Below the pieces are notes generated by a model. That model was not told the origin of the DNA and made no database searches. It saw only the letters and a list, made by a program, of their open reading frames with translations. This document shows, piece after piece, positions 60,016 to 64,000 of a stretch of 64,000 nt of DNA; within the stretch, counting starts at the first letter, position 1; every line of letters starts with the position of its first letter. Source of the stretch: Lysobacter gummosus (GTDB lineage Bacteria; Pseudomonadota; Gammaproteobacteria; Xanthomonadales; Xanthomonadaceae); contig NZ_CP011131.1 in NCBI RefSeq assembly GCF_001442805.1, positions 2,046,001-2,110,000 of the forward strand. The letters run 5' to 3'. Both the position numbers and the translations under genes were made by a program.

Positions 60016-61287
60016 TCAGTTCCTTGGCCTGAACTCGATCGGCACGATCACCACCGCGGCGATCGGCTTGCCCTTGCGCATCGCCGGAGCGAAACGCCAG
60101 CGGCGCACGGTGCTGATCGCCGAGCGATCGAGAACGCGGTTGCCGCTGCGCCTGCTGAGGTCGACCTTGAGCGGTCGGCCGTCGGCCGAGACTTGCACGC
60201 GCAGCGTCACCAGCCCGCCTTCGCTGTGGCGCAGCGCTTCGACCGGATAGGGCGGTTTGGGACTGAAGCCCGGCAGCGGCCGCGGCTTGGCGCTGGCGGC
60301 GTCGGCCGCGCGGGCGAGGCGTTCGCTCGCGGCGCGGGCCTGGGCGAGGCGCGCTTTCTCCGCGGCGGCCGCCTTCGCGGTCGCCGCGATCGTAGCGGTG
60401 GCGAGGCGATCGATCTGCGACAAGCGCGCCGTGGTTTGTTCGATCAACTCCGGCGCAGCCTCCAGCCCCGGACGGTCCATGCCCGGCGTGCCTTCGATCG
60501 CCTGCATCGGCGCCGAGCTTTCGATCTGCCGGTAACCGTGCGAGACCACGATCAGCACGCCGATCACCAACGCGATCGCGCTCAAGGCCAGCGCCAGCAG
60601 CCATGAATTGGTCGGCGCTTCGGCCGGACGCGCGAACTTCGGCATCTTCACCGGCGGGAACGGTTGCGCCGGCGGGCTCGGCGCGACCGCGCTGACCGAC
60701 AAGGGCACGGCGTGGTCGGGATCCATGTGCAGCACGCTGACGCGGCCGGCGTTGAGCGCGGCGGCGACTTCGCTGCTGGCGCCCAGCGCGCGCGCGACTT
60801 CCTCCAGCGCGACGCTGCGCTGCGAGCCGCGGCGTTCGCTGCTGGCTTCGGCGAAGCGCCAGCGGTTGTATTCGGCCCAGATCAGCAGCAACGCCACCAC
60901 CACGCCGGCGGTCGCGGGCAAGGCCAGCATCAGGAACGGATCGACCTCGTGCTTGCGCAGGTACAACTCGGAGGCGACGTTGCGGATGCCGAGCAGCCAC
61001 AGCACCAGGGTCAGTACCGGCGTCCACAGATACAGGTAGATCAGCCAGAACGCGCCGGTGACCATGCCCCACAGCGTGCGCGGCAGCGCCGGTTGCGCGC
61101 CGGGTTTCTGGATCAGTCGCGAATCGTGCTTGTGCGGCGTCGGATTGGCTCCGTCTTTCTTCTTCGCTTTCGCCGGGCGGGCCGGATGCAGCACCGCGTG
61201 CGCCGGCCGCGAGAACGTTGCCGCCGCGCGTCCGGTGTCCGCGCCCGTGCCGGGCGTGGCGCCCGGTGTGATGTGATCGCTGTTCAT
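60016..61287 (-). CDS. pgaD: PgaD-like membrane protein fused to a TonB C-terminal domain
   Basis: 423 residues. After a basic Pro/Lys-rich N-terminus (1-54), residues 55-160 read as PgaD (SRLIQKPG, two membrane segments at about 72-100 and 117-137). A linker follows, then a third membrane segment (about 229-248), an Ala/Lys/Arg-rich helix (280-335), and a TonB_C domain (343-423: KPPYPVEALRHSEGG, VDLSRRSGNRVLDRSAI, RRWRFAPA). PgaD assists PgaC in poly-N-acetylglucosamine synthesis. TonB domains contact outer-membrane partners. Topology (in, out, in, out) puts the TonB part in the periplasm. pgaC stops 4 bases inside its start. Confidence 0.85.
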   Translation of the reverse strand: MNSDHITPGATPGTGADTGRAAATFSRPAHAVLHPARPAKAKKKDGANPTPHKHDSRLIQKPGAQPALPRTLWGMVTGAFWLIYLYLWTPVLTLVLWLLGIRNVASELYLRKHEVDPFLMLALPATAGVVVALLLIWAEYNRWRFAEASSERRGSQRSVALEEVARALGASSEVAAALNAGRVSVLHMDPDHAVPLSVSAVAPSPPAQPFPPVKMPKFARPAEAPTNSWLLALALSAIALVIGVLIVVSHGYRQIESSAPMQAIEGTPGMDRPGLEAAPELIEQTTARLSQIDRLATATIAATAKAAAAEKARLAQARAASERLARAADAASAKPRPLPGFSPKPPYPVEALRHSEGGLVTLRVQVSADGRPLKVDLSRRSGNRVLDRSAISTVRRWRFAPAMRKGKPIAAVVIVPIEFRPRN

Positions 61288-62543
61288 CGCAGTCCCCGAT
61301 CCGGGCTGACCCAGGTCGCACGCGTGCCGCGGCGTTTGAGCAGGGCCTTGGGCACCGCGGTGACCGTGGTCGCGAAGCTCAGCAGCCAGTACGCCATCGG
61401 GTACCAGATCATCCAGTAGTAGTTGCGGCCGACGCCGGTTTCATAACGGCGGTCGATGATGATGCTGGCGGCGAACTGCAACAGGCAGATCAAGGCCAGG
61501 ATTACGCCGTGCCACGACGGAAGCAGCGTGGTCACGCGCAGTTGCTCGGGCAGTTCGACGAACAGGCCCAGCGCCCACAGCGCGATGATGAAAGCCATGA
61601 TGTAGGCCCAGCCCACGCTCATCACGTATTCGGCCAGCACCGCCCACATGCGTCGCTTGCGCCAGGAGAACAGATCGCGGGTATGGCGCAGCAACACTTC
61701 CACGCCGCCCTGGGCCCAGCGCAGGCGCTGCTTCCACAGGCCCTTGAGGGTTTCGGGCATGAGGATGAAGCACATCGCGTTGGGCTCGTAGCGGATGTCC
61801 CAGTGGTCTATCTGCAGGCGCCAGCTGATGTCGATGTCTTCCGTGACCATGCTGTCGGACCAGTAGCCGATCCGGTGCAGGGCGCTGCGCCGGAACGCGC
61901 AGATCACCCCGGACACGGTGAAGATGCGACCGTAGACGCGCTGGGCGCGCTTGATCATGCCGATGATCGAAGAGAACTCGCCGACCTGCAGCCGTCCGAG
62001 CAGGGTCGAGCGGTTGCGGATGCGCGGATTGCCGGTGACCGCGCCGACCCGCGCGCCTTGGCACAGATGCCAGACCATCCAGTGGGTGGCGAATTCGTCC
62101 AGCAGCGCGTCGCCGTCGATGCACACCAGATACTCCGCGCGCGCCGCCAGCGCGCCCATGCGCATGGCGTTGGCCTTGCCCAGGTTGCGGTCCAGGTGGA
62201 CCACGCGCAGGCGATCGTGCTGCGCGGCCAGGCGGTTGAGCTTTTCGCCGGTATCGTCGCGGCTGCCGTCGTTGATGGCGATCACCTCGAAGTCCGGATA
62301 ACGCTGCGCCAGCGCCGCGCCGATGGTTTCGTGGACGTGATCGCCCTCGTTGTGGCACGGGATCAGGATCGACACGAACGGCGCGTCGCTCATCGGCGGC
62401 GGATCGGTGCGCGGCCGCGCGTGGCGTTCGCGACGGAAGTAGTAGTACAGCCCGCCGGATATCCAGAAGAACGACATCACGATCGGATAGAAGAACGCGA
62501 ACTGAAACAGCGCAGTAAGTAGTGGGCTTGCGGCAGGATTCAT
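61284..62543 (-). CDS. pgaC: Poly-beta-1,6-N-acetyl-D-glucosamine synthase PgaC
   Basis: A 419-residue family 2 glycosyltransferase with an N-terminal membrane segment (about 8-33), then VSILIPCHNEGDHVHETI, CIDGDALLDEFA (DxD), MVTEDIDISWRL and the QRLRWAQGG product-binding motif. Membrane segments follow (about 300-335, 345-370 and 380-410). It polymerises UDP-GlcNAc into the PNAG biofilm polymer. Four-base overlap with the PgaD-TonB gene downstream and a 63-base gap from pgaB upstream confirm a pgaB-C-D operon. PNAG synthases of this type are controlled by c-di-GMP. Confidence 0.94.
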   Translation of the reverse strand: MNPAASPLLTALFQFAFFYPIVMSFFWISGGLYYYFRRERHARPRTDPPPMSDAPFVSILIPCHNEGDHVHETIGAALAQRYPDFEVIAINDGSRDDTGEKLNRLAAQHDRLRVVHLDRNLGKANAMRMGALAARAEYLVCIDGDALLDEFATHWMVWHLCQGARVGAVTGNPRIRNRSTLLGRLQVGEFSSIIGMIKRAQRVYGRIFTVSGVICAFRRSALHRIGYWSDSMVTEDIDISWRLQIDHWDIRYEPNAMCFILMPETLKGLWKQRLRWAQGGVEVLLRHTRDLFSWRKRRMWAVLAEYVMSVGWAYIMAFIIALWALGLFVELPEQLRVTTLLPSWHGVILALICLLQFAASIIIDRRYETGVGRNYYWMIWYPMAYWLLSFATTVTAVPKALLKRRGTRATWVSPDRGLR

Positions 62544-62606: not shown

Positions 62607-64000
62607 TCAGCGTTCGAGGTAGGGAAAGCCGCGCGCGGACATGATTTCGCGAGCGTCGGCGGTGGAAGGGCGGTCGTCGATGAAGTTGTCCGGATACCAG
62701 GCCAGATGGCGTGCGCCGGCGGCTTGCAGCCGGCGCGCCATCGCCTTGAGTTGCGCGGCCGGGATCGGACGATCCTGGTGACGCCAGTCCACGGTCTGCA
62801 GTTCGAAGATGGTGCGGGCCAGGCCGCGCGGCGACTGCTTGACCTTGGTCATCAGCACGTCCATCCAACGCTGCGGATCGCGGCTGTTCTCCATCCACGG
62901 CATCGCCATCACCGCGGTGTAGTCGTAGGCTTGGTTGAACGCGGCCAGATTCTGCGCGAACCAGGCCTCGCTGTTCGGATCGAGCACCGGCGCGGCGAAC
63001 AGGTTGCGCACGGTGATCAGCTTCGGCCGCCACTTGCCGGCGGCGCGCGCCAGCTCCTGCGTGAATCCGATCAAGGCCTGGGTGCGCGCGGCCGGATCGG
63101 CCGGCGCCTGCCCGCGCAGTTCGTCCTCGCGCAGCAGCGCGTCGTCGTGGAACAGCAGGCCTTCGGTGTAGCCGCTGACGGCGAGGTCTTCGTACAGATC
63201 GGCGACGATCTTGCGCGTACGCGGTTCGAATGGATTGAGGCGATGGGTCTCGGCCGGGTTGCTGGCCTTGATTTCCAGCTGCGCGTTCAAGGCCTTGTCC
63301 GGCAGTTCGAAGCCCAGCACCGGCAACCAGGCGAACACCTTGACGTGGGCGCGGGTCTTGAGCTGCCAGGCGACGCGGTTGTACAGGTCCGCGCGCATCG
63401 GCATATGGCGGTTGGGGAAGTACATCGCATCGGCCGAGCCGTTGCCGTCGGGATCGGCGAAGGCCTGCAGGAACACGTGGCTGGGCGCGACCTGCTTGAC
63501 TCGCTCGATCAGCTTGTCGAGATTGCGCGCCTGCTGTTGCGGATCGGCGTCGTAGACGTAGTCCAGATCCACCTGCAGCGCGCGCACGCCGTCGAGTTCT
63601 TCGTCGTGGCGCAGTTCGTAGGCCAGATCGTTGACGGTGGGATTGTCGAACATCAGCAGGCGGGCCAGGCCGTGCAGGTCGCGGCCGACCGCCTGATGGC
63701 GACCCTCCAGGTCGAAGGTGACGTTCATGCCGAGCTGATCGGCGATGGCGTTGGTCTGGCTGTTGTAGGCCGCGTACGGCCACACCACCGACTGCGGCGA
63801 GACGCCGAGCTCGCGCTTGATCGCGGCCGCGCTCGCGGACAGATCCTTGCGCACCCGCGCCAGATACTCGGCTTCGCTCTCGTAGCGCTGGGCCTTGGCG
63901 TCCCACTCGCGGGTGATCGCCGCCGGCATGGTGTTGCCCTGCGGGTTGGAGGTCACGCCGCGATGCAGATTGTCGCTGTGCGAGGCGATTTCGATCAGGC
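62607..64000 (-). CDS. pgaB: Poly-beta-1,6-N-acetyl-D-glucosamine N-deacetylase PgaB, C-terminal part
   Basis: The frame stays open to the right edge, so the start and most of the N-terminal deacetylase domain lie outside the window. The visible part begins with LIEIASHSDNLHRG, the metal-binding HxxxxH region of the PgaB deacetylase. It continues into the GH-like C-terminal domain with RALQVDLDYVYDADPQQQARN, VKVFAWLPVLGFELPD and GLLFHDDALLREDE. PgaB partially de-N-acetylates PNAG for export. The GTG that starts the inner frame at 63956 is not the real start. Confidence 0.93.
   Translation of the reverse strand, partial: LIEIASHSDNLHRGVTSNPQGNTMPAAITREWDAKAQRYESEAEYLARVRKDLSASAAAIKRELGVSPQSVVWPYAAYNSQTNAIADQLGMNVTFDLEGRHQAVGRDLHGLARLLMFDNPTVNDLAYELRHDEELDGVRALQVDLDYVYDADPQQQARNLDKLIERVKQVAPSHVFLQAFADPDGNGSADAMYFPNRHMPMRADLYNRVAWQLKTRAHVKVFAWLPVLGFELPDKALNAQLEIKASNPAETHRLNPFEPRTRKIVADLYEDLAVSGYTEGLLFHDDALLREDELRGQAPADPAARTQALIGFTQELARAAGKWRPKLITVRNLFAAPVLDPNSEAWFAQNLAAFNQAYDYTAVMAMPWMENSRDPQRWMDVLMTKVKQSPRGLARTIFELQTVDWRHQDRPIPAAQLKAMARRLQAAGARHLAWYPDNFIDDRPSTADAREIMSARGFPYLER

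Follow-up and report, generated by a model that had tools for sequence, protein, structure and literature searches.

A TonB head gained by PgaD probably lets the poly-N-acetylglucosamine synthase of Lysobacter make contact with a partner at or close to the outer membrane

Poly-N-acetylglucosamine (PNAG) is a sticky polysaccharide of biofilms. To our knowledge, how its inner-membrane synthase and its outer-membrane exporter meet is an open question. We analysed a 64,000-nucleotide stretch of the Lysobacter gummosus genome (NZ_CP011131.1, positions 2,046,001 to 2,110,000; hereafter the window, whose numbering is used for the locus) in which a single gene joins the synthase subunit PgaD to the C-terminal domain of TonB. 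What would a TonB domain do on a PNAG synthase? Our analysis suggests that through the TonB head gained by PgaD the synthase can probably contact a partner that lies at the outer membrane or close to it.

A complete PgaD joined to a complete TonB domain

The gene is an uninterrupted, ATG-started frame of 423 codons, as a preliminary description of this DNA had stated. It is composed as follows.

60016..61287, (-): fusion gene pgaD-tonB (423 aa); the PgaD and TonB_C profiles both score over their curated cut-offs
61135..61287, (-): variable N-terminal tail, residues 1-51 (alignment; AlphaFold predicted local distance difference test score, pLDDT, <50)
60700..61116, (-): complete PgaD domain, residues 58-196 (TIGR03940), with helices at 70-98 and 117-152 and a cytoplasmic C-terminal part
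60604..60687, (-): Pro-rich linker after PgaD, residues 201-228 (alignment), probably cytoplasmic
60538..60603, (-): third membrane helix (TM3), residues 229-250, a hydrophobic segment without the stator motif S-x3-H
60280..60537, (-): Ala-rich linker, residues 251-336 (86 residues), putatively periplasmic
60019..60279, (-): TonB C-terminal head, residues 337-423, containing S-P-K-P-x-Y-P

The PgaD part was recognised by NCBIfam TIGR03940 (107.1 bits, cut-off 31.45; residues 58-196) and by Pfam PgaD (residues 59-189, E = 1.8e-20). The PgaD-like segment described earlier at residues 55-160 was correct in identity and too short, as the domain runs to residue 196. The head matched Pfam TonB_C (residues 343-420, E = 5.9e-20) and TIGR01352 (tonB_Cterm; 60.7 bits, cut-off 27.1), in agreement with the complete domain previously placed at 343-423. 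It also aligned structurally with TonB from the BtuB, FhuA, FoxA and TbpA complexes (VIA-align, which considers only the chains ranked highest by Foldseek). Profile and predicted fold both identify the head as a complete C-terminal domain of TonB. We found no Pfam match to a PilZ or membrane-fusion domain in the fusion at E values up to 1, and a repeat scan detected no tandem repeats.

Hydropathy gave three hydrophobic segments (83-101, 118-136 and 230-248), and AlphaFold gave helices at 70-98, 117-152 and 228-258. Both methods predict two membrane helices within the PgaD part, and both support the third membrane segment that had been reported at 229-248. A further AlphaFold helix (280-331, modest confidence) lies in the Ala-rich linker. 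The N-terminal tail ranges from 5 to 63 residues (n = 10 fusions). The fusion resembles PgaD (TIGR03940 / PF13994) in its full profile match, two membrane helices, pgaABCD gene order and overlap with pgaC. It differs from 11 unfused relatives of 145-189 aa by about 220 additional residues, which bring the third helix and the TonB head; the C-terminus of unfused PgaD from the same genus falls near fusion residues 201-228.

A complete pgaABCD operon ends with the fusion gene, because pgaB and, past the window edge, pgaA exceed their equivalog cut-offs.

61284..62543, (-): pgaC, PNAG synthase of glycosyltransferase family 2 (GT2); TIGR03937, 645 bits, cut-off 422
62607..64571, (-), the part in the window ending at 64000: pgaB; TIGR03938, 792 bits, cut-off 322
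64568-66658 in window numbering (start assumed), beyond the window and upstream of pgaB: pgaA; TIGR03939, 388 bits, cut-off 367

The fusion gene and pgaC overlap by 4 bases (ATGA, 61284-61287) with pgaB adjoining, an arrangement already noted in the preliminary description, and the ATG sits at the identical offset relative to pgaC in 21 of 21 operons read. Genes for an S15 peptidase and a glycoside hydrolase family 92 (GH92) enzyme, both on the opposite strand, flank the operon. The preliminary description had advised looking for a PgaA-type porin or a TonB-dependent receptor beyond the right edge; pgaA was found there, and neither flanking gene is a receptor (other loci of the genome were not searched for receptors). 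PgaA is an ordinary tetratricopeptide repeat (TPR) plus barrel protein by Pfam, with no Pfam match to a plug domain. A scan for promoter and terminator signals of the operon gave results not above shuffles. By eye, the pgaB product showed no clear lipobox at its N-terminus in fused or unfused operons; E. coli PgaB, by contrast, is a lipoprotein.

Distribution, conservation and origin of the fusion

PgaD was present in 78 of the 247 genomes of the family, at 81 places, all of which were read with newly built PgaD and TonB profiles. In this survey of pga operons, which the preliminary description had called for, PgaD and TonB shared a single frame in 10 of the 78 PgaD-bearing genomes. Lysobacter accounted for eight of these (8/13 PgaD-bearing genomes), and the other two belonged to a second genus, Luteimonas. 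The frame was unbroken in all 10 fused genomes, which rules out a frameshift or assembly error. Two genomes of one genus (G026 and G122) carried paired PgaD matches ~2 kb apart, suggesting a duplicated pgaD.

A profile search of a protein database returned 36 matches. Both Pfam domains were present in 33; the rest were two partial PgaD-only entries and one TonB_C-M56 protein. Sources of the fusions included Lysobacter enzymogenes, L. capsici, L. antibioticus, L. firmicutimachus and Luteimonas aquatica, and one entry was labelled Pseudomonas sp. CGJS7. The named entries, about half of the fusions, were annotated PgaD. A named-genome scan gave 14 loci, of which 8 were full fusions (six Lysobacter, Luteimonas panaciterrae and Luteimonas aquatica). 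No fusion beyond the two genera appeared among the matches listed from 398 genomes of the order, at least six of them fused. A 369-genome sample of the class, at a threshold of 1e-28, gave the fusion in the L. gummosus genome only. Neither of two protein searches, with 8000 candidates scored in each, gave one outside the two genera, apart from the Pseudomonas-labelled entry. These order, class and protein searches are ones that distant fusions could escape. The fusion is common to many members of two genera.

The literature searched, with its partial coverage of PgaD and TonB papers, yielded no description of a PgaD-TonB fusion. A Lysobacter capsici gene with a PgaD domain has been reported in an article whose main text has no occurrence of TonB (PMC10384520). 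The main text of a survey of pga operons likewise contains neither TonB nor Lysobacter (PMC7112194).

Motif, length and residue counts were taken over 26 aligned fusion sequences. Tyr347-Pro348, at the entry of the head, was invariant (26/26). The Ala-rich linker held its length at 77-95 residues (n = 26), and its sequence drifted far faster than the flanking domains. The ratio of nonsynonymous to synonymous substitution rates (dN/dS) of the head stayed under 1 in all seven pairs, and in two pairs the head was conserved above PgaD, by 8 points. Judged by these ratios, the fused heads are under purifying selection.

We built a tree of the fusion heads together with other TonB_C domains of L. 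gummosus and three relatives (53 rows, midpoint root). It drew on 30 of 39 matches, left out a weak match of L. gummosus itself, repeated fusion heads in two rows and entered two identical heads once. The fused heads formed one clade (bootstrap 97). The nearest outside head belonged to a stand-alone protein of Luteimonas genome G070, encoded by the second of two tandem TonB-like genes, and joined the fusions at 97. Its counterparts in L. gummosus, G015 and G229 joined the fused heads only at support 48. The head sequences thus grouped support one origin of the head.

From sequence reading, the L. gummosus pair encodes stand-alone TonB_C membrane proteins at ~3322257-3323770, between serS and aroA; similar pairs occur in G015, G229 and G070, and the helices of these pairs lack the stator motif. 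The second gene (~3.3236 Mb, and its G070 counterpart) resembles the fusion as the nearest relative of the head, with a motif-less single helix followed by a linker, and differs in being a stand-alone protein.

Operon history was less uniform. The headless Lysobacter group joined the fused Luteimonas in the trees of PgaA, of PgaB and of the concatenated proteins (support 58, 69 and 83), whereas the PgaC tree placed it with the fused Lysobacter instead (support 96). The PgaABC tree implies two changes of head state. A constraint holding all fusions as one clade was not rejected by the approximately unbiased (AU) test (p-AU = 0.0875; 0.411 for the PgaD part alone). With the single-gene trees in conflict over the headless group and the one-clade constraint not rejected, those genomes may have lost the head.

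A stop-loss fusion with an adjacent tonB was unsupported, as the flanks of unfused loci (1.5 or 4 kb, shorter at contig ends) held no TonB_C open reading frame of at least 60 aa. No clear tonB remnant was present in ~1.9 kb downstream of pgaD in five unfused Lysobacter genomes (best tblastn E = 0.029). The preliminary description had named a joining error, a missing PgaD match and a separate TonB gene in relatives as findings that would speak against a fusion; we observed an intact frame, a PgaD profile match and, in the flanks read beside unfused pgaD genes, no separate TonB_C frame of at least 60 aa.

A proposed passive tether and its alternatives

PgaA together with PgaB completes polymer export. 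PgaC and PgaD form the synthase, which is stabilised by cyclic di-GMP (c-di-GMP) (PMC8461298), and the TPR domain of E. coli PgaA binds PgaB and is required for biofilm (PMC5933820). With a cytoplasmic N-terminus, the three helices of the fusion would place the head in the periplasm, where the alternating topology of the preliminary description had also put it. The linker arm could span the periplasm and carry the head, which may act as a passive dock keeping the PgaCD synthase beside a partner located at the outer membrane or close to it. That partner would most likely be PgaA or the PgaA-PgaB complex. Polymer could then be passed directly from synthase to exporter, and the tether would follow the c-di-GMP-dependent stability of PgaCD.

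We tentatively prefer a passive tether linking c-di-GMP-controlled PgaCD to a partner in the outer membrane or periplasm, with PgaA or PgaA-PgaB as first candidates, because a head-bearing arm would bring a docking domain to the point at which synthase and exporter have to come together. An earlier proposal of a physical tie between synthesis and the outer membrane survives here as the best reading; its TonB-dependent receptor partner is unsupported, given the S15 peptidase and GH92 neighbours and a PgaA with no plug match. That the head is specifically the synthase's dock for PgaA, with the arm of the same protein engaging or opening the exporter without proton-motive force, we consider doubtful. 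The alginate synthase protein Alg44 offers a possible analogy, as a c-di-GMP-linked synthase partner that sends a domain of its own into the periplasm (PMC8461298). Unlike the fusion, Alg44 has PilZ and membrane-fusion domains, and we found no homology between the two.

Several observations weigh against the tether. No partner of the head emerged from the scans of PgaA and the neighbouring genes, so that PgaA is a partner we infer. PgaA shows no plug, and its composition did not differ between the fused and unfused operons examined. The topology rests on hydropathy and helix alternation, and the AlphaFold model of the fusion is weak except for the head (mean pLDDT 65; predicted template modelling score, pTM, 0.29). 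In five Lysobacter genomes the pga operon is complete but its PgaD has no head. In five of the seven pairs the head fell slightly short of PgaD in conservation (2 to 8 points), and the linker, too, had dN/dS under 1 in every pair. We found no report of PNAG production by these species in the literature consulted.

A special PgaA in fused species was considered and set aside. Pfam gave the same TPR plus barrel in two fused and one unfused PgaA, and the make-up was the same across an alignment of 21 PgaA, among the rows listed. Fused Lysobacter PgaA shared ~50% identity with unfused PgaA, compared to 85-88% for PgaC, a divergence that need not be exceptional.

Docking to a TonB-dependent receptor, or competing with TonB for one, would tie PNAG synthesis to nutrient uptake. 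The full TonB fold, its alignment with TonB from receptor complexes and the invariant Tyr347-Pro348 are consistent with this, but neither gene flanking the operon is a receptor. The fold by itself need not signal a receptor partner, because TonB_C also sits on lipoprotein-like and secreted-looking proteins of this genome (by eye). We regard receptor docking as unlikely.

Somewhat less likely still is a head that binds peptidoglycan or another periplasmic partner and merely positions or stabilises the synthase. TonB_C looks like a general envelope module in L. gummosus, with 13 matches, 12 above cut-off and several on proteins other than canonical TonBs. Lipoprotein-like TonB_C proteins were read by eye at 6044790, 3278407 and 5036309 (lipobox-like Cys), and by sequence these are unlikely to be ordinary energy transducers.

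The preliminary description had also raised the use of proton-motive force for export, in which ExbB-ExbD would drive the head to push or gate the polymer. TonB and TolA reach their stators via a membrane-helix motif including S-x3-H, which is described as essential for stator association and proton-motive force use (PMC8928145). The fusion shares with TonB and its paralogs (PF03544) a complete C-terminal domain, a linker and a membrane anchor. It differs in that a synthase subunit supplies the anchor as its third helix, and in that S-x3-H was absent from residues 225-256 and any charged, Asn, Gln or His residue from 229-248 (each 0/26). Ser249 at the end of TM3 was invariant (26/26) and followed by His250 in 16/26, but residue 250 was Leu, Gln or Phe in the other 10. 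There are four MotA/ExbB matches in the genome, but the nearest is ~0.49 Mb from the operon (ExbD was not searched). An ExbB gene close by is common for energy-transducing TonBs, though not universal.

As a control, a TonB of L. gummosus with an ExbB match 11 kb away carries His in its helix (by eye). Helices read by eye likewise showed no motif in the stand-alone proteins most closely related to the head. The motif rule is not without exception, because at 2.6 Mb a TonB-like protein next to an ExbB-like gene has no His in its helix either (by eye). At that locus (~2597.5-2600.4 kb), the ExbB match lies towards the end of a secreted-looking protein of 611 aa, which is followed by the TonB-like protein, whose TonB_C match is below cut-off. 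Because TM3 lacks S-x3-H in 26/26 fusions, energisation by ExbBD is unlikely on sequence grounds, and an energised export role is improbable.

We judge it equally improbable that the head is a passenger with no current PNAG role. The headless PgaD in the same operon of five Lysobacter genomes would fit a passenger, but conservation near that of PgaD, head dN/dS below 1 in every pair and the unbroken frame argue against it. An internal start near Met214 yielding an additional, separate TonB-like protein is the most improbable reading, as a Met at 210-218, before TM3, occurs in 15/26 fusions but is absent in 11/26, including three L. enzymogenes and two Luteimonas entries aligned.

Implications for PNAG synthesis and export

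The fusion is a variant of the PgaD-type synthase subunit and no new kind of system. If the head does serve as the synthase's dock for PgaA, second-messenger control in the cytoplasm would extend as far as the outer membrane with no need for proton-motive force, and a passive TonB domain would serve secretion, not uptake. The fusion points to TonB domains employed apart from ExbBD, hidden by the PgaD name in the database entries examined. A natural fusion of a synthase subunit with an envelope-spanning arm, beside headless close relatives, offers a direct genetic handle on PNAG synthesis, export and localisation.
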